The notes beneath the pieces are model-generated. The model was not told where the DNA came from, did not search any database, and saw only the letters and a program-made list of their open reading frames with translations. Made by a program: the position numbers and the translations under genes. From positions 101,576 through 165,575 of the forward strand of contig JAQYUZ010000040.1 in assembly GCA_033819885.1 (NCBI GenBank): a stretch of 64,000 bases of DNA, written 5' to 3'. The stretch comes from Microbotryomycetes sp. JL201. Lineage: Eukaryota; Basidiomycota; Microbotryomycetes. Shown piece after piece: positions 8,905-58,794 of the stretch (its first letter is position 1; each line of letters opens with the position of its first letter).

Positions 8905-9930
8905 ATGGAGACGATCACTAGCACCTGGAACAAGCTGAGCGGGTCAGAGACGGCACAGGCTGTCAATCCGATGCAGTTGGTCGAGCAAGACAAAAGTGCT
9001 TTCGAATTCCTGCAACTCACGCGCCAGCAGCGACTGATTTGCTTCGGTGCGTCCTTGAGCAATTTCCCATTGAGTATCAGCGCCATCATACCGCCTTTGA
9101 GCGCGGCCAACGGCGACACAATCTCAAGGGGCCCAAGCTCCTCGCACAGCCAGCCCTGGAACAATATAGACGTTTTGGATGCAGCTAGGCTGCTAACGAA
9201 TTCTTTGAATCAGGCGCATGCATCGTTGGCGGTTTCGCCATTTCCCTGCTTGGATCGATCCTCTTCATCTTTGGGCAAATCGCCACTTTTGCTCGTCAGG
9301 CCCACTGCACAGCCTCGATCCTGTCGGCCAGACCAATTGATCTGCTCTCGTGCACAGTTCTCTACACGATTGGTGTCATCGTATCGCTAGTTGGAACAGG
9401 ATTCTTGATTGGGGCAAGCAACTTCGAGCGGTTCATAATATCTTTGACCTTACTAATACGGTCCCAAGCGCAGTTCAAAAGACAATGGCAGCTCATGTGG
9501 GACCCAGTCCGAGCGACTGCGGCAGGTCAGTGTAACCGTTGATGCGCAAGCCGTGGCGTACGCTGAATCGGACACCTCACACAGCCATCTTTATACTTTG
9601 CATCGCATTGGTCGTGAGTAACACGTTCGTGACAGTCATCGGCTACAGTCGCTCATGGGTCCGTCTCGCAGTTTGTCTTCGCTTTCGCCATTGAGATTGA
9701 GCGAGTTGTCTTGAATTTGCTTGATGACGAGAGACTGACCCCGATGCATCTGCGTTTGAAGCGTGCTCGTCATCGTATTTGCCGTTGCAACATACGTTGC
9801 ATACGCATGGTACTCTCTAGTGAGTAGCGCAAAGCAGGGGACGGCTCGTCAGAATATTGACCCGGATTGCACATGTTAGTCGTACATTCCTTATGCGAGA
9901 GCTTTGGCGAAGAAACTATGGCCCTGGTAG
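8905..9930 (+). CDS. SFT2: SFT2-type vesicle transport protein
   Basis: Eight exons: 8905-9046, 9214-9294, 9358-9413, 9474-9525, 9585-9613, 9672-9700, 9762-9819 and 9880-9930. The spliced protein reads LTRQQRLICFG, then hydrophobic helices ACIVGGFAISLLGSILFIFG and LLYTIGVIVSLVGTGFLIG, the loop FKRQWQLMWDPVRATAA, two more helices, and the ending AWYSLSYIPYARALAKK. This four-helix layout and the YSLSYIP ending are those of Sft2, a Golgi protein that aids fusion of endosome-derived vesicles. Two introns need GC donors (9414-9473 with GCAAGC and 9701-9761 with GCGAGT). The first is a multiple of three and open, so its retention would add 20 residues. It is divergent from RIP1. Confidence 0.85.
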
Positions 9931-10036
9931 TCTACTTTTGTTGTTTTACCCATTCCTGCAATTTCCTCTGTTGTGACTTTAGACCACGCCTTGTCTTGCG
10001 CCCGTCTTGTTGTGCCCTCGGCCTCCCTCCAGAACC

Positions 10037-10668
10037 ATGTCTGCACGTTATTGCGTCACTTCACTTTCTTCACGAGCTTGGTCGACATTGCTGCACCAAT
10101 CACCTGCATCCTCAACGGCGTTTGCGTCGACGAGCAAGACACTTTTACCTTGCTTCACGCGCGCCGCAGCTCGACATGCACACACCCATTGCTCCGCGAG
10201 ACCTTACTCGACTCGGCCTCCTTCTGCATCGGATCAATCAGCTGCAAGACCGACCAAACCGTCCAGCTATTTTGTTGCCCGGACAAGAAGCGGCAATTTG
10301 CCAGTGTACACGGATTTGAAAGGATCAGGAACAGGATCATATTGCTTGACATTGATCAGAAACGTCGATGGAGACTTGGAAGTGAGTCGATAGATTCTCA
10401 GGCGGTCCTTTGTTCGTGGCCGTGGTCGTCCGTCCGTTAATGACAGCGCGCGTGTATTCTTGGTTTTATTGTCTGTTCCGTCCCTCAGGCACTAAGGAGA
10501 GACGTTGCGACGTTTCTCTTTACAGACGACCCAGCTGCCGAGCCATCTAAAGCCTCACTCAGAGCTGCACTCGATCAAGTTCAACTCAAGAATCAAGCTC
10601 GTCAACTAGTCATCAAAGGTGATTACAGTCGAGAGCTGAAAGAATGGCTTGCAAGTTTGCACTTCTAA
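10037..10668 (+). CDS. IMG2: Mitochondrial large-subunit ribosomal protein mL49 (Img2)
   Basis: Exons are 10037-10381 and 10499-10668. An Arg/Ser/Ala-rich mitochondrial presequence of about 70 residues is followed by the Img2/mL49 core: SSYFVARTRSGNLPVYTDLK, LTLIRNVDGDLE joined by splicing to ALRRDVATFL, and the terminal VIKGDYSRELKEWLASLHF. The family is a small protein of the mitoribosomal large subunit, required for mitochondrial translation. Length (about 170 residues with leader) fits. The start ATG at 10037 lies in the context gaaccATGtc. It is convergent with the R3H-SUZ gene, whose stop is about 130 bases downstream. Confidence 0.87.
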
Positions 10669-10797: not shown

Positions 10798-13700
10798 TCA
10801 ACCCATATTGAGCCGCTGCATATTCCTATCCAACGACTGATGTCTTGCTCCCGCTTTCTCATTAAATTGCCCTCGACCGGTGCCACCCGCATTGTTTTTC
10901 GTCGTTTGGGGAGTTCGAGGTTTGTTTGGATCGAATAAGGCGGTTGATCTCGGTGGAGGCCGTCTCAAGTCTGGTCCAGACATGATTGGACCCGAACCCG
11001 ATGGTGGAACAAAGTACATTGGCATCGCCGGTGTCTGACCGTGTTGGACGACTTGATCCATCTGATTTGGGAACATTGATGGACCCATTCCGAACGTCGG
11101 ATGGGGGTAAGGCACGGACGGATGTGGATAAGGACCTCCTGCAAACGAAGGCGGTGGTGGCACCGGGGCCCATGCGGTTGGGCGTCGTGAATGAGGTTCG
11201 ACGAGATACGGACCGCTTTGTTCTGGTGGAGCATGTCCAGCTGTCATACTCGACGATTGCCAAGCAGAGACAGATCCAGGTCCGGACGAAGGCATACGCT
11301 CGGGCGGGGCCGGGCCGCGCACGAGTCCTTTGAGGTGACCTCCTCCTCCAGCAGAAGAAGTGGACATCGAACCATCCTCTGACGCGGCCGAGGCCGAGCC
11401 GAAGGACGAAGCTCTAGATTTTTTGCTACCAGCCGTCGAGCTGTTGCCGCCCGACGAATGCCTCGACACCCACGTCGGTTTCGCAGGCAAGCTCGGGTGA
11501 GGCTTCGCTCTTATCGTTCCTGAAACGGACTGAAGAGCCCCGGTCTCGTCGTGATCATTGGTCCCGTCGTTCTCGTCAGATTTGACGCTAGCGCGCTCGC
11601 TCGCGTCGCCGCTGCTGAGCTTGGACCCCGCTTCCTCATCTACGTTCGAGTTGCCAATAACCGAATTGACCGATTGACTAGCCGAGTACGACGTTCGCTT
11701 GATCGGTACACGGTGTGGCACATGTCCGCTCGAGCTTGATCGCGTGCTCGCCACCGAAGTCGAGGACTGGAAAGGTCCGCCGACGCATGCGGCGCTGGTA
11801 CCACCACCACCACTACCGCCACCGCCACCCGACGCATTGCGACTAGAAGTCGACCCTTGCGGTACACCGACGACGCTGCCGTCTGCGAAACGCATCAAGT
11901 AGGTCGAGCTTGTCGACCCTCGCTCTGATGGAGTCGAGCTCCGACCGTGCTGCGACGATCCGACAGAGCTCGTCGACAGAGCCGGAGACGGCAAGGGCTG
12001 AGATCGTGACCAAGATTGCTGTTGATGTTGGGTTTGCTGTTGCTGCAACACGTCCCCGTGCGAATTTCCCAGCGGCGGAAATGCGGTTATGGAGGCCGGA
12101 TGCGGATAAACCAGTGAATGAACAGGAGACGCGTTGGGCCCAGTGCTGAAGGTTTGCTGCTGTTGGTAGACGTACGTTTGTCCGGCATACTGCTCGTGCA
12201 CTTCGGAATACATGTACCCGCTGCTCCAGTCCGGAGGTTGATCAAAAGGTGGAGCCGAAGGTCGCAGGTAAGGCGCTCCGAATGACGACATGGACGTGGA
12301 TGTTGACGGACCATATGTCGAACTGCCTTGAACGCCAGAGTGTACGCTCGAAAATGACGCCTCGGAAGGCGGTGCCCTCCCGCCCACTGACATGGCTGCA
12401 CTACTCCGAGAACGGGTCGAACCGGCCGAGTTCGGACGCGTGATGACAGCAGGCGAAGTCGTGCTCGTAGGTGATTCGGTCACGGACGACGGAGGCTTCG
12501 GCTCATCCTGCTGGCTGAAAATGCGGTCCCTAGCCTCTTTGTACGCCGCCTCCCTCTCTTCCAGCGTCATGTCTTTCCTACTCTTGAGCGCTCTGGGGTC
12601 GTCTTCCGCAGCGCCTGTAGATGACGAAGCTGACGACGTTGACCGGGGGGGACCCGACCTCGGCAGGATCCTGAGAATCTGCGGCGACTGTGAGGCAGTT
12701 TCTGCGACATTTATAAGTGCAGGCGACACGGACGAAGATGTAGCGAGCTGCGGGGGCGTCGATGTGCCCGAGTGAATACGTAATGGACTCGACGAGGTCG
12801 AGCTGGTGACTAAATTGTCGTCTTGCACCGGTGGTGGCACGAATTCGGCCAGTTTGTGGTCGGGCCTGCAGAATGTTGAGATCAACAGGATGCTTGGAAT
12901 GGGAAAGGTGCAATACTTGCATTCTAGTCCGGTCCGATTTGACGAGGACTACCATGCCAGGCGATGCTGCTCCGGGTGTGATAGCCCAAGACGCCACTGG
13001 CGCTGCTTCGACTTCTCGGATGATTCCAAATACATCCGCCAAGCGATGCAGCAGTAACCGTTGGTACGAATTGAGATTTGGCGGAAAGTAGGGCGGAGAC
13101 AGTGGCAACCGCGTAGCGCTGCATCGCAAGAGCTCGTTCAGCGGCACGTTCGGACATTTCCAAAGCGGAAACGCACGCGTGGCTAGCAACGAAGCGTTCC
13201 ATTTCCGTTTCTGCTCTCAGGAGAAAGATGCGATCGCGCGTGTGGCCAAGCGCCGTCAGCAGCACTTGGTCCAGTTTTGGCGGCGAACGAGTTTTGCCAG
13301 CTTGGTCCGATGCTCCGACACCACCTGTTTGATCGCCAACGAGGTTCTGCGAGTCGTTAGCGACATCGCTCGTTGTTCCGTTCGACTGCGCAGCGTCGTC
13401 TGTCGCGCTTGTACTATGGCGTTTCGACCTGGTATCGACCGTGAGAAGTTTACTTTCACTACTCGCGCGATGCAAAGTCGAGTGTGAGCCGTCCGCGCCG
13501 TCATGTGGTTGCTCCCCGCCGTCGTCCTCGAGGGTTGGCGTTGATGAGGCCATGGCTGACGCCGGTCGCCTCAGCAATGTCACTTTGCGCAAGTTTGTGA
13601 CGTGGTGAGCCGGTGTGTCCCCAGCTAGGGCGGTAGTGTTGGCGGGCGAGCCGTTTGTTCCGTCGTCCGATGGCCGCACAGCGATCGTCTCTCGGCGGTC

Positions 13701-14248: not shown

Positions 14249-17200
14249 TCAACCATCAATCGCGCCACCACCTGTCCTCGTAATGATCAATCCCAAACCA
14301 CTGCCACGCGTCTTGACGGCGCCCTCCTTTTCCAATTCTTTCAAAACTTCACCGAGCTCGCCGTCGTCGACTGGTACCGAACTTTGATCTGCCAAAGTCT
14401 TTTTCAACTCTGTCCGCTTGATGCCGTTCGGTTTGGCGTTGATCAACGAGACCACTTCACGTCGCAACGCTCCCAGCATTGACCTTTGTCTGGAAGATTG
14501 TCCACCGAGCAAGTCCAAGTCAATCAGACCCGTCACAGGGTCCGTAGCAGATTCCTTGAGCGCGTCGCGGATCAACCGGTTCGCTTCTTGAACGTCCTGC
14601 ACTTCGACATGCAACGAATACCTCATTCGAGCATGCGCTTCAGACAAACGGATCATGGACTCGAGCTGTCGGGTCGTTGCCGTAATGCGTCGGCTAGACG
14701 TGCGAGCGTCGGCGCCAAGGTTGCGCATGTCGACGTACGCTTTGACGAGCGCGTCGGAAGCTTCGCCAGTCAAAACAGGATGAATGTGGTTGCGCGCCCA
14801 CGAAATATATGCTGACAAGTCTTCAACTTTCTGTAAACAATACAAACGGGAGCTGATCAGAACAGTCTCTCAAGATTTCGAGGGCGGTGCTGATGCGCTC
14901 ACCATGATGTCTGTGCCAGCAGTCATCGGTCGATCTTCCAAATACAGAGAAACCAAGTGAGACGCCAGCCGTCTATCGTTGGCTTCGTCAATCCGGTCCA
15001 AGACGAGATACAGCAAGTCGAAACGTGAGATCAACGTCGGTGGCAAGTCAATGTTGCGCGTGATTGGCCAGTTGAGATTGTACTTGCTGCCGACAGGATT
15101 GGCTGCCGCCAAGATGGAGGTGCGCGCATTCAGAGTTGTAATAATTCCAGCCTTGGCAATCGAGATGGTTTGTTGTTCCTGAGCAATCCGGCGCGCACTT
15201 GTTAGAGGACAGGGTTCAGCCAACCATGACTGATTTTTTGGGCTCACCATAACTTCGTGCAACACACTTCGAGTAGAGTCGGACATCTTATCAAACTCGT
15301 CAATGCAGCAGATGCCGCCATCAGACAAGACGAGCGCGCCACTGTACGGAAGACGGCTATCAGTCGAGCACGACCAATCAGACCACCGCGTACCCACCTT
15401 TCAAGAACAAGCTGCTTCGAGTCGGGGTCGCGTGTCACATACGCCGTCAGACCAACGGCGGATGAACCTTTGCCGGAAGTGTAAACGCCACGTGGCGCAA
15501 TCTTGTGCACATACTGCGTTCGCGATCAGACGTAAGTGAGAGAGCTTGCATGCAGCAGACGTTCGCGGCTGAACGACTGACCTGCAAAATCTGCGACTTG
15601 GAGGTACCGGGATCACCAACGAGCAACACGTTGATGTCGCCGCGATACCTTGGCCCGCCGCCTCCGCCACCTTTCGCGATGTTCTTATTCGTGCCACCGA
15701 ACAGTTGCAACAAGATGCCCTTCTTAACGTCGTCCATCTCCCAGATTGAAGGCGCCAACGACCTTGCCAAATAGTCGTAAATGTCTGGTCTCCTCGATAT
15801 TTCTACCAAACGCTCCTTGAGCTTCGCTTGAACGGTCGCTTCTCGGTCTTGTGCGACGTTATTCTCGTCGTCCATGTCCATCTCGTGTGTAGGCTCATCC
15901 TCAGTCTCTCCACCGATACCGATCGTGCCACGTCGATCGTCTGCCAACCTCGTTGACGAATCGACGCCCATGCGACGCTTGTCCGTTTTGCGCACATGTA
16001 CGACGTCAAGGTACGTCTTGAACAGAGACTTGACGGTGCGTACACGTGGGTTGATGCGAACGGTGGCGGACCGGAAGATACCGGTCAACGAAACACGGTC
16101 TCCCGGCTTGATAGAGTCGACGAGCTCGTCATACAGACACAGCGAGACGGTATGGGGCGTTTGACCGTCAGGAACGGCGTCTGAGATCATGTGGGATTAG
16201 AAAACGCCTATGGGGCCGTCGATTCACGGCGCCTGCTCACCTGGCGTCTCTTGTAGCCTGACAACTTGACGGTCTGCAAACTCGCATCGGTTGTGAACCA
16301 TATTCATCGAACCGACTTGACCGCAAACTTCTCGTGGGCATTTCTCGGGCTCGGCAATCTGCCCTCGATCAATCTCGACCGTCATCGAGTGCGAGCAAAC
16401 ACCACATCGGAAGAACGCTGGGCACGACAAGCATCAATACTTGTGCTGACGAGACAACAGCCGAGCAATACTAGACTGACCAACTTTCATATCTGGGATG
16501 ACGGCAGTTGCGCGAATCGCAAGACCTTTGATGCATACAATCTTGTCGATGTCTTGCGGATTCAAATCGCGCAAATTCACGTGGCGTTGTCCGCCAAACG
16601 GACGAATTTTAAAAGTTGCTGCCTCCATCTGTTCAGCGCGCTGGTTGTTTTCGGCACGCTGGGTCGCATTGCCCAAGTTTTCGTACGCAAAGTCGAGCGC
16701 GGCGTCCTTGAGAACTTGATCGAGGATTGGCACGACTTCATGGGGATAATTTTGCAAGTTGCGGTACAGCTTGCCAAATTCTTTGTCCTTTTTGGACACG
16801 TCGAGCCCTTGCCTCTCGCGGTGCCTGAATGCGAGCAAGTCAATCACGTCCAAGTTCAGATTGGTCTGGCCAGTGTCGCGCATGCGCTCGAGATAATGCT
16901 GGTAAATTTTCCTTCCTGGTGCCTCTTTGGCGTACGCAAAGTCGACAGCGGCACGCTCGAGCTCGTCTTGAGCTTCGGCAAACCGTTCGGCATCGTAAGT
17001 TTGACGATCCTCGGCCCTGAAATCGTCCAAGAACCATCTGAAAGCGCTCATAGTTGATGCAATTGTCACGTCAGTGCCCCAAATGACGGTTACGGCCTCG
17101 TTCTCTTCTTCGTCTTCCATGTTTTCGTCCTGGCCGTTGCCACCGACGCCGCCTGCAATCGAGGATGTCGGCATCTGATCTCGCTGGCGTCCACCGGACG

Positions 17201-17860
17201 CGGCGGACGACGTTGGTAGGCCAGGACCATTCTGTCTGTTCCGAGTGGCGGATGAGCGATGTTGTCGGATTGGCGTTAGAGGGAGGCCCGAATGGATATC
17301 GCCGCGATGAGCCCGTCTCGGGGTAGGTGAGCCTCCTTCGGACCTTTCGGGCACATGAGGACAGTCAGGTTCTCCAAGCCTCGTTTCGTATCGATCTCGC
17401 GCTTGCTGCGGCTTACCCAGGGAAAAACAAGGGCGAGTCGTCGCGGTTCTGGCGCGAAGTGCCACCGGCAGGATCGGACGAAGGTCCTCCTGCCGAGCTG
17501 GCTCCTCGCGCGCCAAAAAGGGCTTGTTGCCGCAGACTGTTTGCTGGGCGCGATGCTGACGACGACGGGAATGGCAGTGGAGACGACCCTGCGAGAGGAG
17601 CAAACAGTCAATCAATCTGCGGACGGGCCGGGCGACTGTAGCTTGCCTGCTGGTGCGTCGCTGTTGAACAAGCGACGTCGGTTCAGATCTGCTTGAGAGT
17701 TCTCGTTACCATGTGAAGCGTCCGATGAAGGGTGTAGGCCGCCTGCGCTGCTCGAAGGGAAAGCGAGCGGCGAGGACGCGCCCATCTCGGCCTGCTGCTG
17801 GCCCGCCGTGGGCTGTGATTGCTGTTGTACATCGTCCAAGTCCATATGGTCGTCGTCCAT
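14249..17860 (-). CDS. MCM4: DNA replication licensing factor MCM4
   Basis: Nine exons: 17860-17647, 17589-17417, 17343-16481, 16417-16241, 16180-15582, 15513-15398, 15341-15248, 15178-14903 and 14830-14249. The N-terminus is Ser/Pro-rich with [15 protein letters not shown], typical of Mcm4. The zinc finger reads [12 protein letters not shown] ... CPREVCGQ. The AAA core has Walker [12 protein letters not shown], Walker [10 protein letters not shown] and the arginine finger region [16 protein letters not shown]. It is one of the six subunits of the Mcm2-7 helicase that unwinds replication origins. The second exon ([11 protein letters not shown] ... DDSPLFFPG) lies in a frame of its own and needs a GCAAGC donor at 17646, with less conservation to prove it than for the other GC introns. 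Confidence 0.95.
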
Positions 17861-18331
17861 GGCGGCTGTGAGTATGCCAGAGTCAGCAGTGCGATCAATG
17901 TCGTGCGGCCGTCCGACGCGTCGTCAATTCGCCTGGGCTGCACGCGAGCAACAGATGCCTGACAAGGCCAAACACGACCTTGAGCAGTGGGCTGCTCAGT
18001 TTGAGGCATGGACTCGGTCTCACCTGCGTTGTACCCGAGAGCTGAACGTATTCGGCGAGCGTCAGAAGGATGGAACACGCGCGGCGGCGGCGGGCTCGAC
18101 ACGCGACGCGACGCGTAAATGCCGACAAAATACCTTAATTGTCAAATGCGATTCGTTTTCTCGTTCGCAAAAATCAGCAGGGTGCTCTGGATGATTAGAT
18201 ACGCTATAACAGGCTGGAACAAATGTGGCTGCACGAGCCTATCAGCAAGCAACCCAATGGGGAAAGTACTCGCTGGGGAGGTTCGACGTCCCCAGGAGCT
18301 CGTTGCTTCCGTGCCAAACTAGCAACGATCA
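17861..18331. promoter_or_regulatory. Divergent intergenic region MCM4 / GDSL esterase
   Basis: About 470 bases separate the two divergent start codons. It must contain both promoters. I see no clear TATA box, repeat or conserved ORF in it. Confidence 0.4.
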
Positions 18332-20130
18332 ATGAGAGCGAGGCGGCGGCTTGGGGCAACCATTGCCGCCTGCACGTGCTTGCTCCCTGGCACTGTCAGG
18401 AGTCAAACACCCGGCGTCGTTCAACCAAACGTCACTCTTTCGCAGATTCAGCACATGTATGTTCATAGGGACAGACGTTGCACCCATTGGATGACTTGTA
18501 CTGACTTCACGGTCGCACGTCGGATTCAAGCTTTGCGTTTGGAGGTGCGTGTACAGCCTTCAGTCAACACTCGGCATGTTTCAGCTGACAACGCTGCGAT
18601 CCGCACAGACTCATACACTGCAACTGGCTACGATCCAACAAAGGGCTTGCTCAATATCCCGCTTATCGGTGGGGTCAGTCCGCTTGCCTGTGGTCCGCTT
18701 TGCCACCGTAGCTCATGTAGCCATTCCGACCTTGGCTGCAGACTAGCTCCGGAGGCCTCAGTACGTCCTTGGTGTGAACGACATGTACTCGAGCGCCATT
18801 CCCGTTGACTCATGTTTCCATTTGTACGCAGATTGGCTTCAGTTCATCGCAACAGGAAATCCTGCTACTCAAGCATCCTTCTTCTCGTTTGCACAGTTTG
18901 GTGCAAACACGAATGCTTCCGTCATTTCAATTGAAGACAGCACAGTGCCTGATTTAGTCGACCAGGTCCGACAATGGCAACAGTTCTTCGTGCCACCACC
19001 GGCAGCCGTACCGTGGACAAGCCAAAACTCGCTCTTTGCCGTGTGGGCCGGCATCAACGACATTGGCAATGCGCTCGTCAACAATCAGTCATTCCCTGAC
19101 GCGCTGCCTGCTTTGTCGAGAAGCTATGCCGGCCAAGTCGACGCTCTATATCGTGCCGGGGCACGCAATTTCCTGTTCCTGACGGTTCCTGCCATTGAAA
19201 AGTCACCATTGATCTCGGGCTGGGGCAATGATGCAGTCGAGATTGTGTCGAACAACATTGGCATTTTCAATGACGCGTTGACAGAATACTGCAATGGCTT
19301 ACAAACCGTATATCCGGATGCGTTTTACGTGCTCATTGATTCGCGACCGGTCTTTGATGCGGTACGTCCACGCTGAGGCCTGCCAAAGGACAACAGACAC
19401 TCACGTGAATTGTAAAAGATCTTGGCCAGTCCTCTACAGTACGGGTTCACCGATACGACAGAGTAAGCTTTGCTGAGCATTCGAGAACGACATAAGCACT
19501 CAGTCTGTTGTCGCCAGCGCATGTCCATTGTACGACTTTATCGACAACGATCCAAATTTGTACCTGCCCTTGTGTCCTTGGCCTCTACCTCAATATTTCT
19601 GGAGGAATGATTATCATCCTACATGGCGTGTACATCAATTACTTGCTACAGGTGAGCCATCGTCGTGATTTGACGGTTAATGATATCCATATTTCTCTGT
19701 GCTCAATTGACAAACAATCGCTTCAACAAACACAGTCGTCAAAGATCTGATGAGTCCTCAACTCGCCACAAACTCTCCAACACTGGTACCGACGACCGCT
19801 CCAGCGTTGTCTACTACGTTTACGATAGCCAGACCAACTTCAACAATACCTAGTTCGTTATTGACTAGTCGAGCGACAAATGCAGCTTCGATCGTCGCCG
19901 GCAGACCGATCGGAACTGGGTCAACAGCTGTCGTCTCGACAATGTCCGATAGTGCGATCGGCTCTGCCACAGAACAGGATTCTACCAGTTTGTCAAGGGT
20001 AGCTACCGGGTCAAACACTCAACCGACAGCCACGCCGACAAGTCAAAGTTCGAGTTTGCTAGAGAGTCTGTCGGGTTTGAAAATAGGGGTAGCTTGCACC
20101 ATCGCGTTGGTTTTATACTGGAGCTCATGA
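18332..20130 (+). CDS. GDSL acetylesterase (CE16-like), GPI-type
   Basis: Nine exons: 18332-18456, 18531-18544, 18609-18673, 18742-18760, 18832-19361, 19419-19462, 19518-19651 and 19736-20130 can be placed with GT-AG introns (eight listed; more would not be needed). The N-terminus looks like a signal peptide. Splicing the 14-nt exon yields IFAFGDSYTATGYDP, the GDSL block with the catalytic Ser; the 19-nt exon yields TSSGGLNW. Block III WAGINDIGN and the terminal DYHPT with catalytic Asp and His follow. A Ser/Thr-rich tail ends in the hydrophobic GLKIGVACTIALVLYW, a likely GPI-attachment signal, so the enzyme is probably wall- or membrane-bound. Family role: deacetylation of wall polysaccharides; the substrate is inferred only. 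The count of exons I support is eight. Confidence 0.85.
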
Positions 20131-20249
20131 TGCAGTATCTCATTTGCGGCTTTGCGACCTTAGATACGTCCCCGTGACTTTGCTCATGTTGCACATTCGT
20201 TACTTTTTTCCCTTTGTCGGCTCTAAAGAAGAATGGATCGGCCTGATTT

Positions 20250-21983
20250 CTATTGCTCTTCTCCTCCCTTGAGGTCAGTCTTTTTCAAGCCACCTTCCTG
20301 AGCAATCTTGAGGTATTCGAAAATCACTGAAAAGTCACGGTCCGAGAATTCTTTACGGTTCGTCAACGCATTGTACAAGGTCGTTGTCAGACCTCCCAGT
20401 GGCAATGGAGTGTTTGTCTGTTTCGAAGCCTCAATTGCTAGGTTGAGATCTTTCCGAAGCGGAAGATTTGGGTCAGTCCACGAGACTCAGATAGGAGCAA
20501 GCGAGCGGCTAACCTTTCGTCATGAGCTTTGTCAGAAATCTGGACGGGATGAGCGGTCGAAATCGGTGGTCAACGATAGCGCATCATCGAGAATGACGCC
20601 GAACGCGAACTCACCCGCCCTCGTAATTGCGATCTGCCGGTGGCTTGACCTGGGGCAATGCACCTGGTGCCGGATTATTGACTTCTGACGCCCAGCAGCG
20701 GCCAGTCTGTGAATCGCATCCATTGAGCACATCTTCTACACCTGCCCTGCCATCAGGCAAGAAACTGACCGAAGTATTGATAACGGACGCGAGCAAGTCG
20801 GGCGAGAGGCCAAGAGTCTGTCCCAGCAACATGGCCTCACTGAAATCGAAGAATGATGTAAGCAGCTGTCTACCGCGGAAGCTTGTGCAACCGAGAACTA
20901 ACGCTGTACCGGCCATCTCGATGCCGAGCAACAAGCTAGAGAAAAGTCTATCAGTCTTGATCGTTTGCCGGAATGCTGGCGAGCAGAAGCTCACTTGTTG
21001 CAGATCTTGGCGACCCTATGAGCGTCATAGCACACAGAAGCGAGAGTCAGCTCCAAGAGCAAGGACACGAGAGCGCTTGAGAATCGCTTACAGCCCGTTG
21101 CCCGATCCTCCGCAATGAATCGCACGCTTGCCCATCATCTGAAAGTATTTCTCGGCGCGTCGGAAGCTGTCACAAAAATTGTCAAATTACTATGTGATCG
21201 GATGTCATGTTCCACTGACGCCTCATCTGCACCGCCCACCATGAACGACAGGGTGCCCGAGGCAGCACCAGTGACTCCTGCAAGTCAAGTCGCTCAGCTT
21301 TTGCACGAGTTGATCGTGGCGGTTCTCGATCTCCTCACCTCCAGACACTGGTGCGTCAAGCATAGTGGCGCCAATGGCGGCCATCTGACTTGCCACGTCC
21401 TTTGCGATCGCCTGATCGAGCGTCGTGCTATCAATTAGCAATGTCTCTTGACGTTTTTCATTGTCCATCTCTTTCAATGCCTCCGCAATGCCATTTTCGC
21501 CCAAGTAGACCTCTTGCACGTGTGGGGACGAGGGCAAGACGGTGATGATCGTAGAAGCTAATCTTGCGACGCCTGCTGGACTTGAGGCTGGAATAACGTC
21601 CCTGCCCGAGTAGCTGCGCGTGTGCTCGTTCAAAAAATTGTCGACTGCCGGTTGGTGTGCGTCGTACACGACAAAGCTCGGCAAGGGAGGTTTTGACGAA
21701 GACGAGGACGAGGGGATGCTTGACTGCTGGACGTGCTGCTGAAATGCCTTGTTGACGACGTTTGCAGCCATGCCTCGTCCCATTGCGCCTGTGTGTCCAA
21801 TCGTCAGTGAGTGAGCATGTCTAACGTGCAGAGCTCAGGCAAAGATTCGCCCCGCCGCAAGCCGCAAGTGGGGCACACCGGCTCGTGACCATCCTGGTCG
21901 AACGGATCCGAGCACGTACCCAGTCCGATGAAGCCGATTGATTGGCTGCGGTTGGCGTGCAGCAGTAACCTGGTCGGCAGCAT
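20250..21983 (-). CDS. 3-hydroxyisobutyrate dehydrogenase, mitochondrial
   Basis: Nine exons: 21983-21920, 21788-21339, 21277-21220, 21166-21092, 21015-20995, 20935-20903, 20839-20615, 20539-20514 and 20449-20250. The start MLPTRLLLHANRSQ is presequence-like and runs into the NAD-binding motif SIGFIGLGAMGRGMA. The substrate motif DAPVSGGVTGAASGTLSFMVGG is split by an intron. The catalytic region is GGSGNGLVAKICNN, with the active-site Lys, partly on a 21-nt exon. The ending is LTKLMTKDLNLAIEAS. Reaction: NAD-dependent oxidation of 3-hydroxyisobutyrate to methylmalonate semialdehyde in valine breakdown. A polar insert (QHVQQSSIPSSSSSSKPP) and another between the VINTS and NYEGG segments make it longer than usual. 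Confidence 0.9.
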
Positions 21984-22374
21984 CCTGGACGATGAGCTAT
22001 TTGCTTGGCGCGCGAGAGCGACACAGACACAGAGAGCGGTCGGGCCGAGACTAGTTTGTGCTGGCCAATCAATTCAGATTTGCGCGGTTGACAGAAATGG
22101 CGATCTGAGCCAAAGCTACCTTGAAAGAGCGAGAACTAGCAAACGGAGGACAAACCTGCCGCTGCCGAGCAGCCGACGGCCGGACCGGCACGAGACTGGG
22201 TTGGTGTATCACCGTAATCTCGCGGAAATCATCTCCGTTCCGCCTCGTGTAAATATAGTATATGCAAGTAGCTCGAACTCGCAATGTGTTACGACGCCCT
22301 CTCCCGGCACGTGACTTTGGTCGACGTCACAGCGGAGACGGACGCGGCAGTTCCTTTCTTCTGTCTGGTGTCGA
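21984..22374. promoter_or_regulatory. Divergent intergenic region HIBADH / DUF4385 gene
   Basis: About 390 bases between two divergent starts. ORFs here carry no recognisable protein signal. It presumably holds both promoters. Confidence 0.35.
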
Positions 22375-23177
22375 ATGCCGCCAAGGTCGAAGCCCCGCGA
22401 ATTTCCTTTCTTCTTGCCATTCACACAGCTCGACCTACGGCAGCGACCAGACCTGTACCGGATCGGCAAGGGCGAGCAAGGTACGCACGCTCGCTCTCGT
22501 GCTACATCCGGTCTTGTTTGTTTGACAATGCATCGGCAATGCAGGCGTGCTGTCTGTCGAGCCATACAAATCAGAAATATTGCCACTCTGGAAGTTCAAG
22601 AATCCACAAGCAGCGACAGAGTCTTGTCGGGCGATCAGCGCCAAATTTCAAGAGTACAAGGCGCAACGAGACTTTGTCGGATGTGACATGGCACGCAAGT
22701 TTGTGCGTGATCAGATCCGCTTAAAGGACAGCGTAGCGGCAATTCTGCTGAAAAAGTTCAGACCCACAGATGCAAATGGGCTACACGAGATCGCGTCGTT
22801 ACGCAAACCACAAAGGTTTGTCCTCTGCTCGGACCCTTTGAGCCATGGGCTGTCCGACATGACCAACAGAACCACGTAAAACAGGCGGGAAAAAGTACAC
22901 GACAGATGCGTCGGGCAAACGAACGATGATCCCAAGGTTAGAGCTTGAAGACCAGGACCCGGACAAAGTCGAATCTGCTCGCATCTTTGCTGCCGGGCTC
23001 GAACAACTCAACGCAGACACAGTCTATGCCGAACTGAAACGAAAGCACTTGGACGAGCACGAGAGCAAAGACCTGGATCTGACAGGAATCCAAGTCATCA
23101 CAGGCGTGCCCGAGAAACGAGGTGGCGAGGCCAAAGGTGAGATTGGCAAAGCAAGCAAACGGGCTCGTAAATCATAG
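22375..23177 (+). CDS. DUF4385 family protein
   Basis: Exons are 22375-22480, 22545-22702, 22770-22815 and 22885-23177. The spliced protein reads LDLRQRPDLYRIGKGEQG, VLSVEPYKSEILPLWKFK, DFVGCDMARKF, then MQMGYTRSRRYANHKGGKKY, the pattern I recall for the DUF4385 family of unknown function. The 46-nt third exon lies in a different frame from an open reading frame that runs through it, so a naive translation gives a wrong sequence (GLHEIASLRKPQR). The Lys/Arg-rich C-terminus (GKASKRARKS) could be a nuclear signal. It is convergent with the quinone oxidoreductase gene, with about 80 bases between stops. Confidence 0.8.
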
Positions 23178-23258
23178 GAGGTATTTTGTGGAACACAACT
23201 TGGATTGGAACGAGCTTGTTGTATCGTACTTTTGCGCATCATTCTGACGGAAAAAGCT

Positions 23259-24713
23259 CTAAGCCACCTTGACAATCAGCTTGCCACTCGTCTTGCGGCT
23301 CGCTGCGACACCGGGCCAGCGTATCAGTCGGCATTCAATCGAAAGAGTATCGAATACTCTAAAACTCACTGATGTCTGATTGCGCCTGCTTGATGCCTTC
23401 GGTCGACAAGTCGTACTCTTTATGGACAGACAACTTGAGTACGCCCGACCTCAACAGCTCAAACAACTCTTCCGAATACGACTGGTACTCTTCCTTTGTG
23501 TGAACGTATTGGTTCAAAACCGGTCGACAAACCTTGAGATTTTTTGGGCCGAGCTTCAGCGGCGCGAACGGAGCGACTGGACCAGATGCGTTGCCCAATG
23601 TAACGATCGTCCCTTTTCTGTCATGAGAAGGACAGCCTCATACGTCAGCACGAGGGAGGTCAAAGGAGCCCAAGACGAAGAATACCTTCGAACGAGGTCA
23701 AAGTCCATGTCGAACGTGTCTTTGCCGACGCCGTCAAACACAGCATGCACACCTCGATCGATACCTTGCCCTCCAGTGATCTTGTATACTTCTTCGACGA
23801 CATTTACATCTCCAGAATACAAAATGACGTGATCTGCTCCGGCCTCTTTCGCTAATTTGGCTTTCTCCTCCGTGGATGTAGTACCAATGACCTGGGCCCC
23901 GAAATGTTTGCATAGTTGACACAACAGCAAGCCGAGACCTCCAGCGGCAGCTTGAATGAGAATGTACTGTCCTTTCTGGACGAGGTGAGCTTCTTTGACA
24001 AACGTCAAAGCCGTCAAACCTTGAACTAGAGCCGTCGCCGCTTGCTTTGTCGTCACGTCTTGAGGAAGTTTTTGAGTTTTTGCAGCATTGTTGAGGCAGT
24101 ACTCTGCGAATGATCCTCCCGACGTGTAGCCGACGACTCTGTCTCCGACTTTGAAACCATACGTCTGCTCGTCAACGTCTGGACCTACAGCGACGACGAC
24201 TCCAGCGGATTCTTGACCAAGAATCATGGGCATTGGCATTTTGTAGATGCCTCCTCGCATGTCTGGAACCCAACAAACGGGCCCGTGTCAGCGTCAAGAA
24301 AACTTGTTCCTGTGAATCATCAGCACCAGAACCGGCGACTTGCAAGTATCGATAAAGTTGACTCTGTCCGGACGCAATAGCCATTCAACGCGGCCGAAGT
24401 TTGGTATGTCAGCCAAATGTGATCCTTCGAGATGGGTGGGGTCGATCGCTCATCCGTTCTTGCTTGTGACTGACCCAGCGTATTCAACTTTGTACAAGAC
24501 TTGGCCCGGTCCAGGTTGAGGTACGTCGACGTCGTGCACTGAAATGACGTCCAACGAGCCTTGCTCTTTGATCTGACACGCTTTCATCGTCTTGGGAACG
24601 TCCATCGTCGACATCCAGGCCTTTATGGGTGATTTGAACAAAGTCTGCTTAGTGGACAAGTGAGATCTGACGAGCAAGAGTCGTTGTGCAGTTGTGGCCC
24701 GACGCGTGAGCAT
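23259..24713 (-). CDS. Quinone oxidoreductase (zeta-crystallin-like MDR), mitochondrial form
   Basis: Exons are 24713-24475, 24363-24344, 24262-23696, 23617-23370 and 23302-23259. The ATG at 24713 opens MLTRRATTAQRLLLVRSHLS, a convincing mitochondrial presequence, before KTMKACQIKEQGSLDVISVHD. The conserved VNFIDTY is encoded by a 20-nt exon ending at a GCAAGT donor and joined to MRGGIYKMPMPMILGQESAG. The NADPH-binding loop is AAAGGLGLLLCQLCKHFGA. Family reaction: one-electron reduction of quinones by NADPH. It lacks the zinc ligands of alcohol dehydrogenases, as expected for this class. An internal ATG at 24614 could give a cytosolic form. Confidence 0.88.
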
Positions 24714-36563: not shown

Positions 36564-36667
36564 TGCGGAACGGCTGCTATGGTAGATCGAGATCCTCGTG
36601 TTGTACAACCTAATGCCATTCCAGTCTGATTCATCCCAATTTACGTTCCATCTGACGCGAAATTCGT

Positions 36668-43594: not shown

Positions 43595-45363
43595 TTACAT
43601 CTTTTTCCTGTCTACAGAGTCTGCCATTTGTACTCTCCGGTCGAGGAACGTCCTCGGCTCGTCATAATAGACTCCAACCAACATGAACGCGTTGGCAAAC
43701 GTGAGACCCAGACTCGACTCTTGAGTCGAAGGAAACTTTTCCCAGCCAAATTCGACCGCTGCGAAAATGCCAAGTCTGTGGACGTTTGCGGCCCAGAGTC
43801 AGCGACTCTAAGGGAAAGGCTCGCGGGTGAACACGGTCTTCACCTTTGGTAGACGTCGTATGGCGTGTGCCACAAGAGGAAGGCTACTTGATGGGCGTAC
43901 CATGTGTAGAATTGGTAATGCAGTGACCTCGAACACAAGATGCCGACCAGATTTGATGTAAACAAGATGACGCACAAAGCTGGCGCATTCAACAATCAGT
44001 GCCTCGACCCAAGATTGACGGCAAAGTCGCAAACTTACAGTCGGCTGACAATGGCTGGCATAGTGGCGCTTGAAAAGGCTTCGTGATGGCTTCCCGGACC
44101 AGATCGAACACGGGCTTGCCTGACCTATCGCTCCAGCTTGAACCAAAAAAAATCAAAACGATGAGGTGTACGATGAGCAGGAGCCCACTGAGTTCCGGAG
44201 ACTCGAATGCCGCCTGTCCAAGCCATCGCCAATTGACCGTCCATTCCCACAAGAACTCTCTGGAAAAGTTGAAAGATGTACTGAAGTAGGTCGAAAGACC
44301 ACTCGATGATGACGCGAACGGGAGAGCGACCACGAGTTGGACGAGCGCGACCGCGGTCAGGTGGCCAAGCAATTGTATGAAGCCGAGCGAAGTAGTCCAG
44401 ACAAATACGAGACCTGGTAGGAACAAGAGAAGATTCATCTTGACAGAGAGGGCGAGGCTGGAAATATCAATCGCTTGTCAACTCCCAGGTTCGCATCCGA
44501 TTCTCCTCGGGACTTGCGCATAGACTATCGTTCCCGTAAACCATGTCCGCCTTGATGTTCTTGCTGTTGTCCAGATATAGAGTGCGATGTAGAAAAGCAG
44601 CATGGCCACGCAGTCATTGAACATACGAAGCACGTAAAGAGAATGCAGTCGCTTGGAAACGCAAAGCAGGACTAGAGTCCAGGATGGCAGCTGTGCAGCC
44701 TCCGGTGAGATTGACGCGATTTTATTACGGTTACCAACGCCTCACCGTCCCACACCGTCGAAAGATGCCAAAAACCAGAGCCATGGTGGCAACGTAAATC
44801 GCCGCAAAAATGTATTGTGCCGTTCTAAGATCGCGTCCTTTGTCTGTAACAGCGTACAAGGCTGCGTAGATGTACAGGAACCCGGCGGGATAGCTACTCG
44901 TATCGACACTTAGTTATGTGGTCGCTCGCGCCTGCACAACGGCTCACACAATCGGTCCACTGTCTCCATGTATTCTGCTGTAATCGCGTTCACCATTAAG
45001 AAACATGCGCACTTGTTGCATATATGTCGAATAGTCGATCTCCGTGTCTGCGCCAGAAGAATGCACATCAGCAGATCCAATCTTTGAGCTCGGGCCCCTC
45101 GACCACATGGGCCTCCGCTTCCGAGAGGTGCTTGTCGTTCCAAGCGACTCACACTTGACAAATTGAATGATGAACAAGCAAAAGAGTGATTCTGCCACGA
45201 GCAGCAAGAGCGCGACGGTCGAGAACCAGCGCTCATCGGTCAACACGCTCACTGCCGACTTGATAGAGCGCGGTAACGATGTTACAGGCGAGTCTTCATA
45301 CTGCTGCACCTGATCTTTGTCCAAATTCCGGTTTGGAGGCTTGCGAGCGCTTGTTGGTGGCAT
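43595..45363 (-). CDS. ALG3: Dol-P-Man:Man5GlcNAc2-PP-Dol alpha-1,3-mannosyltransferase
   Basis: About seven exons encode a multi-pass ER membrane protein. After a polar N-terminus ([10 protein letters not shown]) comes a helix ([21 protein letters not shown]), then the family motif [14 protein letters not shown], restored by splicing, GDSGPIV joined to [15 protein letters not shown], and [18 protein letters not shown]. The C-terminal part spliced from three frames reads [24 protein letters not shown] and [17 protein letters not shown]. All are hallmarks of Alg3, which adds the first Dol-P-Man-derived mannose in N-glycan assembly. The last exon ends at 43595. An in-frame ATG 33 bases upstream is a possible alternative start. 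Confidence 0.9.
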
Positions 45364-50601: not shown

Positions 50602-53460
50602 ATGTCGTATCCGCCGACGCACGACGCTGCAAGGCGCGTGCAGGACGACGAACGATTCAACTCGCGCTCGTCCGCGGATTTGTACGCAAGCGTGCCGACG
50701 CAGGACGCGTACGATCACCCACCGACTCCGCCGCATTTTGTCGACGACAATCACTATCCGATCAGGAGGGACTCGACGATGGGCTCGTTTGGCATGGACA
50801 GCTACCGGGATCCGTACGGAGCTCAGCCTTACGGCGGCTCGACCACAACATCGTTCGCCAACCTCGCAGATTACGACGGCAGTCAGATGGCGCTCAACAC
50901 GATCGGCAGAGACGGCGCTCAACAGGGAACGTATGGAGACAAGTACGAGGATGAGGCGTTTGACGGCGTCGCCACCCCCAAGCAACGAAACCTGAAACGA
51001 GGAGGCGCAAATGCGGGGGCGGGCGGGTTTTGGTCTAGATTGTCAAGCAAGGGTAGGAAAATGCTCATTATCGGAGCAATTGCCCTCTTGCTCGTCATCG
51101 TTATCGCTGTCGCCGTGCCTGCGGCCGTCGTCACTACAAGTCGCGACAAGAACGAGTCGGTTGATAGCAATCAGGAAGGCTCTGCAAAGTCCTCAAGCCA
51201 TTCAATCGTCGCATCTGCACCTTCAGGAGTCCCCACGGGTGGCTCGGATGGCGGCGACATTGATTGGAGAACGGCGGCCGTAGGTGGGGACGGTTCGACT
51301 GTGTACATGGAGGATGGCTCGTCCTTTATCTACAACAACACATTCGGTGGTTTTTGGAACGCTATTCCGTTCAATGATTCCGCCAAGGCACAAGCCGATA
51401 TGCCCGCTTTGAACGAGCCGTGGGACTACAGTAAAAATCTCATCTCCGGCGTCAACATTGGCGGGTGCGTTCTTTCGAAGTCTTGTCTCCAAAATTTGTC
51501 CCTCATTTAACGATGGCGTGTCCTTGATTTCAGATGGTTAACGATCGAGCCATTCATTGTGCCCGGTCTTTTTGAGCCGTTCAATCCTGAGACGGGTTCC
51601 GATGTGTACGACGCAACTGTGGTGGACGAATGGACTCTGTGTGAGGCTCTAGGCTCCAACATGACAGCTGTCATCACAGAGCATTATGAGACGTTCATCG
51701 TAAGTTGTTTCAGCTTTATATCTCAATCGCCGCTTGCCGACTAACCTCTCTTCTTCCATAGACCGAGAAGGATTTTGCCCAGATTGCGGGTGCAGGTCTG
51801 AATTGGGTCCGTATCCCGATTCCGTGGTGGATCATCGAAGTGTACGATGGCGAGCCATTCCTGGCCAATGTCGGATGGACCTACTTCCTTAAAGGTCTCA
51901 CTTGGGCCCGCAAGTACGGTCTCCGCGTCAATCTCGATTTGCATGCCGTGCCTGGCTCTCAAAACGGCTACAATCACTCGGGCAAGCAGGGTTCTATCAA
52001 CTTGCTCAACGGTGTCATGGGCATTGCCAACGCGCAACGGACGATGAATTACATCCGCACCTTGACAGAGTTTATTTCGCAAGATCAGTACAAAAACTTG
52101 GTGCCAATGTTCTCGATTCTCAACGAGCCATATGCTGCGACGATTGGGGTCGAGACGCTTCGCACTTTGTGAGTGGCAAGGCTTTGTCAAGGCGTTTTGT
52201 CTGTACTCACTTTGTTTTCACTGCAGTTACTATGAAGTTTACACAATGGTACGCGAGATCACCGGATACGGCGAAGGCAACGGACCGTGGATCACCTTCC
52301 ACGATGGGTTCACGGGCACTCCCGTCCGATCTGTCGCTCAAGGCGGCTGGCTCGGATGGTTGCCTGGTATGGATCGAGTCGCCCTTGACACGCATCCCTA
52401 CTTGTGCTTTGCCGAGCCAAACAACGACGGCATCACGTACCAAGCCGCGAAGGTGAGAGATCCTACCGAATAGGAATCCCGTCACGGTGACTGAATAGCT
52501 GCAAAAACTCGCAGCCTTGCTCGTATTGGGCCGGAGGTATGAATCAAACTTCAGAACAATTTGGCTACTATATGGCTGCCGAGTGGTCGCTTGCTTGTAA
52601 GTTGCCGTGGGTCGCATGTTCATCCGAAGTAGAGACCGACACGGGCATTTGTTTCCCTAGTCAACGATTGCGGCAAGTGGCTTAACAATGTCGGCAATGG
52701 CCAGCGCTATGAAGGCACCTACTATGTCCCTGGCAACACGACAGCTCCAGAATTTGCGCGCGTCGGCAGCTGCGAGCCTTGGACTGTAAGCTTGGACGGG
52801 GAAGTAACAGTCCCCGAAGTTTACTGACATGTGCGCATCCAGAATTATCCTGCGTACAACCAGTCCACAAAGGACGGCTTGAAGCTCGTTGCCGCCGGCC
52901 ACATGGACGCGTTCCGTAACTGGTTCTATTGGACTTGGAAGATTGGCTACAGTGACGTGCTTGGCATGATTGCCAATCCGGTTTGGTCGTATTCTTTGGG
53001 ACTGCAAGAAGGATGGTTGCCCGAGAACCCTCGCGAGGTCGTTGGCGCATGCACGTCACTCGTGTCCGAAAACGGATTTACTGTTTCGTTCTCGACCAAT
53101 CCGGCTCCGACACTCTCGCCTTGGATGACGGGCGGCCAAGGTGCTGGCACAATTCAAAACACCGCCATGCTGAGCTCATACACGCAATGGCCGCCTGCGA
53201 GCCTCGGCACAACACCCGTGTCCAACTTGCCAACGTATACTCAGACTCAGGACAGGATCACGCTGCCCGTTAGCTCGGCGACTTCCTATCCGAGTGGGTA
53301 CTCTACTCGAGTGTCGCCTGGTGATGGTTGGTTTAACAATCAAGATTCGAGCGATTTTTACACTCCAGTCGAAGGATGTAGCTACCCTGACCCGTGGAGC
53401 GGAGTTGAAGCGACGAGTGCGTTAAGACTTCCGCGGCCAGGTGACACGTATTTGTGCTGA
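50602..53460 (+). CDS. Membrane-anchored glucan 1,3-beta-glucosidase (GH5, EXG-D type)
   Basis: Seven exons: 50602-51474, 51534-51699, 51762-52168, 52227-52452, 52515-52596, 52661-52785 and 52843-53460. A polar N-terminus is followed by one trans-membrane segment (KMLIIGAIALLLVIVIAVAVPAAV), a linker and the catalytic domain: SGVNIGGWLTIEPF, GLRVNLDLHAVPGSQNG, acid/base ILNEPYA (near 52122) and nucleophile MAAEWSLA (Glu at 52581). The tail is Ser/Thr-rich. Exo-beta-1,3-glucanases of this kind trim wall glucan from the outer face of the plasma membrane. It is the complete paralog of the truncated gene at the left edge, which lies on the opposite strand. Confidence 0.93.
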
Positions 53461-55590: not shown

Positions 55591-56299
55591 CATCACTTGC
55601 TGTAATTTGATTTGACTTGATCGACCACGAATGTGAGCGCAAAATTGCCAGAGTACAGGTATGCTGCGGATGCTGAGCGCCGCCCGCACGTGTGGGTCCA
55701 GGCACGTTTCCGTCCGCTGTGCCCTGCCCGCATCGCCGTTTCGGGCCCGTCTGCTGACTCGACGCTCGAACTGTTGAGCTTGAGTACGCGAACACAAGGC
55801 CTTGTCGTCTGTGCGGACGTCAGACGAGGCAGCAGAGCCGAACCGTTTGACGACGACGCTCGGCGCAGACGCGGAATCGACGTAACGCAGCAGTCGACGA
55901 CAACTGCAGTTTGACACGAGCGCGAAGTATTGGAAAGTGAAAGGTGCAATTGCGCCCAGCGGGTAAGTGCCTGCGTTTCCGATCATGTCGCTGTGTGTAT
56001 GCGCGTCCCGCAACATTGTCTGTGCTCGCCGTGCGCGCACGCGCAGTGTCGATCATCGTCAAAGTGCTTTGCTCCGTTCGCTGTCTCTTGCATTCTGACT
56101 GCTGGTCGGACGACGGCGACGGTCAATTGGGTCGCGCAGACGCAGCTGTAGTCGTCTGCTTGGTCTTCTGCGTCATTTCCTCCAAGCCTGACTCTTGCTT
56201 GATCGGATACAGACCTACGTGACTTCGCGGTCAAGGAGCCTGTCGCGTGGCCACCGAGCAGGGAAGCGCGCATCAGGAGCGCGGTGATCGCCACACTCC
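55591..56299. other. Gene-free stretch before the PHO80-like cyclin
   Basis: About 710 bases. Several overlapping ORFs on both strands look like chance frames in GC-rich sequence. Presumably the cyclin promoter. Confidence 0.35.
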
Positions 56300-58794
56300 A
56301 TGTCCACGCCAGCTTTCGCACCCGGACTCGTCTCACATCTGCCGATCCACTTGGACACGTCATCTGCATCGGCCAGAGCATCACCGGGTGGCGACAAGGT
56401 TTGGAACCAAACCGGCGCAAGCTTGCAAAAGCAACTGCACGCCACCAATCTTGCACAAACGAGCGAAGATCGCCAGCCACCACAATACTCGCCTCAATCG
56501 GCAGCCTCATCTACAGCGTCATCATCGACAGACTCGACATCGCCCCGCTCGGACGTGCTCGCCAACAGTGCGCTTGGCAGAGGCAGTCTCGGACTGACCT
56601 CGTCGCAGGCGACTTTGGGCTCATCCAGCAGCACGGCGACCACAGCATCCCCAGTAAGCAGCGTGAAAGGCACCCTGTCAGAGACTGTTGAATGCATCGC
56701 GATGGACGAGGACGCTACAAATGCCACCGTGTCGTCTGCAAGCTTGGCGACCGCAACAGATAGACCGGGCAGCGCAGCGTCGCGAGCTATGGCGGGTTTG
56801 TCTGTTCAAGAAACGGAGTCCCCGCCGAGATCACAACTCAAAGTTGACACGAGCGACGAGATGACGGCAACGGCTTCGGGCAAAATTCGGCGAGCATCCG
56901 TCCTCAGCTCATCATCGGCACAACATCCGGAAGAAGGTGCTTGGATGTCCGGCAGCAAAAGCGGACGAGACGCTCTGCCGGCACGCAAAAAGGCCCCACG
57001 CATGGGCAGCTTTGAGGCTCGATCAGGGACAGACGGATTTGGAATGACGAGAATGGACCAATCGCAAGCACCGGTAGCCTCATCGTCACGGACCAGCTCG
57101 GAAAGCGGGAGCAGTCGGCAACAGCGGGTGCCAAAGGGCTTAGAAGTGCCGATGGCGGCTGAACCTATGACTTTGCCGGCGGCACCGCAGGTCCCGTTAC
57201 ACCAGCAGCAACAGCAACAGCAGCAGCAACAGCAACAGCACGTCGACATTGTGAATTATCCGTCGACCGAGCTACTCAAACTGCTCGCCTCACTTCTGGA
57301 ACAAATAGCTCACGCCAATGATGCTCTGCACCAACGAACTCAGGCTTCACGGTCCGGCTCGAGCTCTCCACGGCCGCCGGGAGCATACTCGAACGAATCG
57401 ACGGCGTCCTTCCATACTGGAAGATTCGATGCAGCTCCGCTAAATTCGCCCTCGACGCCTCGGTACAGAGCAACGAACGACAACCGGGAAGACGAAGCTG
57501 AGCAGCAAGAGATGCCCGTCACGCCCGGCGTCGACTTGTTACGAGAAGTTGGTGTTGGAGGAGGCGTTCAAGGATTCATGCCGAGCTTGGGCGGGACGCA
57601 TCAGCCGCAGCCTTTGTCGCGACGGCGGGGGAGCAGTTTCCTTCGACGGCGCGAAGATGGGCCGTCCCCGAGCATCTCACGACGAACGAGTACGGCCATG
57701 GTTGAGGTTGGACCGACTGCCGCATCGTCCGCACATTCAAGCTCATCGTCGGTCCATACTCAGAATGCTCAAGCAACAGCAAATCAGAGCCATTCAGGCA
57801 CGCCATCGCCAGACACGCCTTTGACTGCTTTATTTACAGCATCATCTCAAGCTCTATCGAGTCCGTCGGCAACATTGTGTTTCCATGCCAGAAACGTGCC
57901 AGCGATCTCGATCGAAGCATACCTTCTTCGTATACTCAAATATTGTCCGACGACGAACGAGGTCTTTTTATCGCTCTTGGTTTATTTTGACCGAATGGCC
58001 AGAGTTGGACTGGAGGCTCAAAGAGCAGGGATCGCCCCCGTCACATCAAATTCGAGGGGCCCTTCTTCGTCGAGCGGCACTACTGCAGACACGGCGTCAA
58101 AATTGTTTGCGATCGACAGCTTCAACGTGCATCGGCTTGTGATTGCGGGGGTAACAGTTGCAAGCAAGTTTTTCAGCGACGTGTTTTATACTAATTCTCG
58201 CTACGCCAAGGCAAGTTCATGTCCCAGCCTAGCCGGACAATCATAGAAGGGGAATCAGCTGACTGTTTGCGCACGCTCCTTCCCCAACAGGTCGGCGGAC
58301 TGCCTCTGACAGAATTGAATCAACTCGAATTGCAATTTTTGCTGCTCAACGATTTCAGATTGGTCGTGCCTGTCGACGAATTGCAACGGTACGCCGACCA
58401 ATTGATCTTGTTTTGGGTCGGTCGCAACAACAGTCCCGCCGATTTGCAACAACCACAAACCGTCACGTCTGGCGTGCCAACTAACCAAATCGATGCAAGC
58501 CGACCTGAAACGCCTTTGGCTCAACATGCTTCCCACGCTCCTTCTGCAGCAACCTCTCCGTCCACAAATTTGACAACTCCAGTCACAGCGGAATCAGAAC
58601 ATGTGAGACCGAGGTCAGTCAGGAGTCAGCCATCAAGTTCGGGCACGAGCGTCACTTCGACCGTCACGCCCGGGACCCCGGCCTCTGCAAGAGACTTCCC
58701 ACCGGATGACGACGAGACCAATGACCAGTACCAAGACATTGACACACAAGCTGGAAAAAGCACGACGAACAGTGAAGCCATGGACCAAGATTGA
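56300..58794 (+). CDS. PHO80-type (Pcl family) cyclin
   Basis: Exons are 56300-58210 and 58291-58794. Roughly 500 residues of Ser/Thr-rich disordered sequence with a 12-Gln run precede the cyclin box: VPAISIEAYLLRILKYCPTT, EVFLSLLVYFDRM, IDSFNVHRLVIAGVTVASKF, then FYTNSRYAK joined across a GC donor (GCAAGT at 58211) to VGGLPLTELNQLELQFLLLN. This matches the Pho80/Pcl class, which partners Pho85-type kinases in phosphate and growth signalling; which process is not shown here. The C-terminal tail is polar. Unspliced reading would stop within the intron and lose half of the box. Confidence 0.9.
57203..57238 (+). repeat. CAG/CAA tract coding 12 glutamines
   Basis: The run lies inside the PHO80-like cyclin, just before its structured region. 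It mixes CAG and CAA codons. Confidence 0.9.

Follow-up and report, generated by a model that had tools for sequence, protein, structure and literature searches.

How often do the genes of a fungus begin their introns with GC in place of GT, and can a short stretch of the Microbotryomycetes sp. JL201 genome depart widely from the usual figure? The stretch in question, called the window below, is the whole 64,000 nucleotides of DNA analysed here (contig JAQYUZ010000040.1, positions 101,576–165,575). A first-pass annotation of this DNA had listed ten introns that need a GC donor. All ten donors are present, with open reading frames that agree with the respective protein families, and two further GC-AG introns were found, in ALG3 (44458–44517, − strand) and in a sterylglucosidase-like gene (38213–38280, − strand). 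Judged from the sequence, the 12 sites are very probably genuine GC-AG introns of the U2 type (major spliceosome), and would be about ten times commoner than the fungal average.

Share of GC-AG introns in the window

Gene models were reconstructed manually, with known protein families, splice motifs and reading frames as guides, yielding 29 curated genes, none of which contains an internal stop. These genes hold 124 introns, 112 of them GT-AG and 12 GC-AG, which corresponds to a GC-AG share of 9.7% (95% confidence interval 5.1–16.3%) for hand-curated models in a 64-kb window. Introns occur in 28 of the 29 genes, and the GC-AG sites fall in 11 of these 28, over 49 kb. A second count was restricted to introns lying within stretches aligned to a Pfam family or a solved structure (21 genes), and gave ten GC-AG introns among 82 (12.2%; binomial P = 1e-8). 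The aligned ranges used for it were the best stretches from the searches, with the MCM4 range set by hand; the MCM4 and R3H introns fall out of this count and ERG26 is kept via a weak alignment, without which the ratio becomes 9/81. Both counts bear out the earlier estimate of several percent or more, set against about 1% in fungi, the mean tabulated for fungi being 1.009% (PMC7072748, Table 1).

A thirtieth gene, encoding a transcription factor (approximately 45.5–48.7 kb; Fungal_trans, 29.5 bits), was excluded from the count because not all of its junctions could be fixed; the gene finder and manual reading both placed GT donors only in this gene. The purpose-built gene finder, anchored at start and stop codons, returned 16–19 GC introns among 146–182 under four settings. 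It over-called introns, and the final count was therefore taken from the hand-curated models only. Candidates rejected on reading include GC introns in MET8 (35393–35476), in a GMC oxidoreductase gene (5307–5363), in the sterylglucosidase gene (36967–37072 and 37185–37233) and in a GDSL gene (18338–18445); such candidates were discarded because the proposed intron was itself open or conserved coding sequence, or because a better GT solution existed. The MET8-like gene itself (34633–35541, + strand) is intronless in our model, and the other 28 curated genes have introns.

Requirement for a GC donor

For each of the 12 sites, all in-frame, stop-free GT-AG pairs with both donor and acceptor within 45 bases were listed. 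Such pairs are available at nine sites (2 to 12 each), and there are none at the other three, namely the second SFT2 intron, R3H and the quinone oxidoreductase (QOR). The best alternative GT donor over all sites scores −2.1 bits, whereas the 112 curated GT donors have a median of 3.9 bits, a 10th percentile of 1.5 and a minimum of −3.3. Over the same seven positions, scores of the 12 GC donors range from 3.3 to 7.2 bits, and no site has a comparable in-frame GT donor within the 45-base reach. Retention of the intron leaves the frame open at one site of the 12. In the six genes compared by Pfam, with one to three alternatives tested per gene rather than every listed pair, the GC model outscored every GT or retention model by 5 to 39 bits. 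A control in which 61 of the 112 GT introns had an alternative scoring at least equally well also counts pairs that share the donor and differ in the acceptor; it is unclear on donors and was not used.

The family comparisons are as follows, donors being written with a slash at the exon–intron boundary. In the SFT2/Got1-like gene (+ strand), the intron at 9414–9473 (GGG/GCAAGC) is the sole site that stays open on retention. The Got1 domain scores 74.4 bits when this intron is spliced from its GC donor, 46.9 with the best-scoring GT donor and 56.6 when it is retained, so that retention costs 18 Pfam bits. The second intron of this gene, at 9701–9761 (TGA/GCGAGT), lowers the same score to 48.1 bits when retained. 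For the PHO80-like cyclin intron (58211–58290, + strand; AAG/GCAAGT), PF08613 reaches 150.9 bits with the GC donor as against 111.5 and 122.9 with two GT alternatives, and the residues NSRYAKVGG align with NAHYAKVGG of PHO80. The ALG3 intron (donor TGC/GCAAGT) yields ALALSVKMN and a PF05208 score of 431.3 bits, compared to 404.4 for the best-scoring GT alternative. In the uL14 gene, labelled mitochondrial in the first-pass annotation, splicing of 36465–36546 (+ strand; TGG/GCGAGT) gives the C-terminus KIVSLAPKVV and 147.3 bits for PF00238, as against 128.4 with the best-scoring GT donor. The CHY zinc-finger intron (40513–40602, − strand; GAT/GCAAGT) yields WFDCSECHAEQ and a PF05495 score of 44.6 bits; it drops to 33.3 with one GT alternative, which was not the best-scoring donor. 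For the HAD-like hydrolase intron (29008–29082, + strand; GAG/GCAAGT), PF00702 scores 53.4 bits with the GC donor and 44.5 and 48.1 bits with two GT alternatives; the scores of two other HAD families, neither of which covers the junction, are identical under all models.

The remaining junctions were assigned by alignment to solved structures or by reading frame. In QOR (24263–24343, − strand; CTT/GCAAGT), the GC splice restores GVNFIDTYMRGGIY, which aligns contiguously to GVNFIDTYFRSGQY of 4rvu. The sterylglucosidase-like gene matches 8exd_A over 535 residues (319.5 bits), and the junction (donor CAG/GCAAGC) falls where this alignment contains gaps; a GT donor located 6 bases upstream has a score of −6.1 bits and swaps WYS for C. 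The ERG26-like intron (42367–42429, + strand; AAG/GCATGT) produces the junction YFDLEK/ARRVLGYEP, weakly aligned to 3wj7 (19.8 bits), and the best GT donor there scores −8.0 bits. The MCM4 intron (17589–17646, − strand; CAG/GCAAGC) accommodates a frame change in the N-terminal part of the protein, outside the aligned region, with a best GT donor of −8.8 bits. The intron of the R3H/SUZ protein gene (12866–12920, − strand; AAT/GCAAGT) likewise lies at a frame change between two open exons, and an intron is therefore forced. The SUZ domain (49.6 bits) is downstream of it, and the R3H match, at 24.2 bits below the cut-off of 26.8, ends before the junction. The coordinates proposed earlier for the ten introns held except in three cases: the uL14 donor had been set ten bases too far right (36475 for 36465), and MCM4 and QOR were off by one base each (17590 for 17589 and 24264 for 24263).

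The models were also compared using a decoder that was allowed GT plus one other donor dinucleotide at an equal small prior, with the gain expressed in score units (natural logarithms). In a run on 25 of the 29 genes, with QOR and ERG26 (two of the 12 GC introns) among the four left out, GC gained 83.3 units with ten introns, all of them curated, as against 3.7–29.0 units (2–5 introns) for the other 14 dinucleotides. When the decoder was trained on the 18 genes free of GC introns and run on all 29, the gain for GC was 55.2 (ten introns) versus 5.3–27.6 (2–7 introns), and nine of the 12 curated GC introns were recovered exactly.

Donor composition and intron class

The GC donors are GCAAGT in six introns, GCAAGC in three, GCGAGT in two and GCATGT in one, in accordance with the earlier remark that the first three of these hexamers make up most of the donors. 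Position +3 is A in 10 of the 12 GC donors but in 27 of the 112 GT donors (P = 9e-5), for which the leading +3 base is G (61/112). The intronic remainder of the donor is also stronger in the GC class, with a mean of 3.5 out of 4 matches to AAGT at positions +3 to +6 versus 2.49 in GT donors (P = 7e-6). The exon side (−3 to −1) shows no difference between the classes (P = 0.32). Among GT donor hexamers across the window, GTCAGT, which has a C at +3, ranks third in frequency (14/112).

In other respects the GC-AG introns resemble the GT-AG introns. They are 55–90 bases long, with a median of 65.5 that is the same in both classes, the acceptor is CAG in 10 of the 12, and a CTRAY branch-like motif is found in 8/12 GC-AG and 58/112 GT-AG introns. 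The longest of the 124 introns belongs to the Rieske gene (7934–8414, − strand) and, at 481 bases, measures several times the median.

A closer match to the U1 consensus in the rest of the donor than is seen in GT introns is a hallmark of U2-type GC-AG introns. All 12 sites start with GC and end with AG, and the stronger remainder is found on the intronic, +3 to +6, side. A U12-type assignment was ruled out by the donor motif, which is GCRAGY in 11 introns and GCATGT in one, as opposed to TATCC after the first base; the U12 donor is cited as ATATCC in PMC3033335. U12-type introns also have a CCTTAAC branch site; the branch-site scan made here covered CTRAY.

Proposed mechanism and alternative explanations

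A C at +2 would cost the donor one pair in its duplex with the 5′ terminus of U1 small nuclear RNA (snRNA), and this loss may be offset by the A at +3 together with an almost complete match to AAGT or GAGT at +3 to +6. The likely origin of the GC donors is a T-to-C mutation at +2 that would have been tolerated by permissive 5′ splice-site recognition, with the GC form persisting at sites whose intronic donor bases are strong. Under this mechanism the introns would presumably be spliced in the cell, and U1 pairing would be what is compensated.

Several points weigh against the interpretation of the 12 sites as real and abundant GC-AG introns. The junctions were read from genomic DNA alone, in a single 64-kb window that was selected because it looked rich in GC-AG introns, and were curated by one analyst who knew the finding and was thus not blind to it; the decoy decoder runs serve as a check on this. 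Because of the selection and of the curation, the figure of 9.7% may overstate the true rate. The weakest of the original ten are MCM4, R3H and ERG26, the first two junctions being placed by frame continuity by itself and the third by a weak alignment. Site by site, the decoder is not decisive: trained on GC-free genes, it missed both SFT2 introns and set the CHY intron at 40506–40592, and AT donors had a slight edge over GC in HAD (gains of 9.0 vs 6.5) and in the sterylglucosidase gene (8.6 vs 8.2). Lastly, the predicted U1 duplex of the GC donors (−3.6 kcal) is weaker than that of the GT donors (−5.7 kcal), and improves only marginally on the value for in silico mutated GT donors (−2.5 kcal, P = 0.065).

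If the gene models were wrong, the true structures would be nearby GT-AG pairs or retained exon sequence. The nine sites of 12 that offer in-frame GT-AG pairs within the 45-base reach and the open frame of the retained first SFT2 intron are compatible with such errors, but the alternative donors, at −2.1 bits or less, fall below the 10th percentile of the curated GT donors (though the worst of these scores −3.3), and the alternatives scored in six genes all lose Pfam bits, which makes this explanation very improbable. Sequencing or assembly errors that turned real GT donors into GC are scarcely credible. The sequence is known from the window alone, which leaves room for them; yet such errors should be independent of the +3 base and would leave it GT-like, so the bias toward A at +3 indicates that the GC donors are not random base errors, and the curated models are free of internal stops. 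A lucky draw from a genome with an ordinary 1–3% of GC-AG introns has in its favour that one window was chosen for the very feature under study. Against it, the binomial chance of 12 among 124 is 6e-9 at a rate of 1.009%, 4e-6 at 1.85% and 3e-4 at 2.97%, and the sites are dispersed among 11 of the 28 intron-bearing genes; we consider a chance excess unlikely. A single local cluster of GC-AG introns was ruled out because the sites span 49 kb.

Why these introns are so many is a separate matter, for which an altered spliceosome is possible. A change in U1 snRNA, U1C, Prp8, U6 or an RNA modification might lead the splicing machinery to accept C at +2 throughout the genome. A share that greatly exceeds the fungal mean although G+C content is moderate, and the 14 GTCAGT donors, would fit such a change, while the compensation at +3 to +6 suggests that standard U1 pairing still counts, and the algae rich in GC-AG introns discussed in PMC3033335 have an unaltered putative U1 5′ end. 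We treat as a tentative and rather doubtful proposal a genome-wide relaxation of 5′ splice-site recognition through an altered U1, U6 or Prp8 contact, under which C at +2 would be tolerated in about one intron in ten at moderate genomic G+C. The window yielded no snRNA: no RNA family reached the Rfam gathering score there, and a permissive search gave one weak microRNA match. High G+C content is unlikely as the cause of the excess, because third codon positions have a G+C of only 54.5%; the coding G+C is 54.7%, and that of the gene-dense window is about 54% (51.0–55.8% per 4-kb block).

The genuine U2-type GC-AG introns that we favour would have practical consequences. With about one intron in ten starting from a GC donor, gene finders restricted to GT would be likely to misread many genes; in the window, 11 of the 28 genes with introns would presumably receive broken models. 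For the genome as a whole, the 9.7% of this one window is the only figure, from which a genome-wide excess would be an extrapolation. A fungus with about 10% GC-AG introns at 54–55% G+C would show the effect uncoupled from an extreme base composition, and would offer a group in which to seek the cause of a high GC-AG share; if recognition were indeed relaxed genome-wide, it would provide a fungal model for the loosening of the GT rule.

Other features of the window

Genes such as those for the Fungal_trans transcription factor, the PHO80-like cyclin and the sterylglucosidase are in keeping with the fungal origin of the window. The gene at 59062–62600 (− strand), first identified as CLF1, was reassigned to SYF1, a subunit of the spliceosome (747 bits to 9l5r_I, its best solved match); it has nine introns, all with GT donors. 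Two glucanase-like genes (2–1211, − strand, and 50602–53460, + strand) encode similar proteins and have at least two intron positions in common, with identical phase (one inside VN(L/I)G/GWL, one after TFI). The last 36 positions of the window (63965–64000) are all G, which has the look of the end of a contig or assembly. In searches that reach close relatives only, no related locus turned up in prokaryotic contigs (with a SYF1 protein segment) or viral contigs (with an ALG3 segment), and positions 15000–24000 had no match in a plasmid collection.

Comparison with other GC-AG introns

In mammals, GC donors usually have a strengthened exon side. The window differs in this respect, as positions −3 to −1 are not stronger in its GC donors than in its GT donors. 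With other fungal GC-AG introns the 12 sites share the GC donor, the AG acceptor and a GT-AG-like length; similar lengths of the two classes are described for the 61 species surveyed in PMC3033335. The frequency sets the window apart, being about five to ten times higher than the fungal mean of 1.009% and the values of 1.85% in Ganoderma lingzhi (PMC11590231) and 1.7% in Trichoderma longibrachiatum (PMC4324775). One study of human fungal pathogens gives a range of 0.02–2.97% (PMC6176087). No fungus near 10% turned up in the GC-AG literature that was consulted, and searches of the literature for GC-AG introns in Pucciniomycotina, Rhodosporidium or Mixia osmundae returned no paper.

Shares far above 1–2%, as in the window, are reported for algae in PMC3033335: 39.6% in Aureococcus anophagefferens, 22.2% in Micromonas pusilla and 7.7% in Chlorella sp. 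As the latter ranks third of the 61 species, no fungus in that set exceeds 7.7%. The link between G+C content and GC-AG share is described there as weak outside the three richest genomes, and the high share in very G+C-rich algae is called an enigma. In G+C content the three algal genomes rank above all others in the survey (69.5% and 65.9% in the first two), in contrast to the window with its coding G+C of 54.7%.

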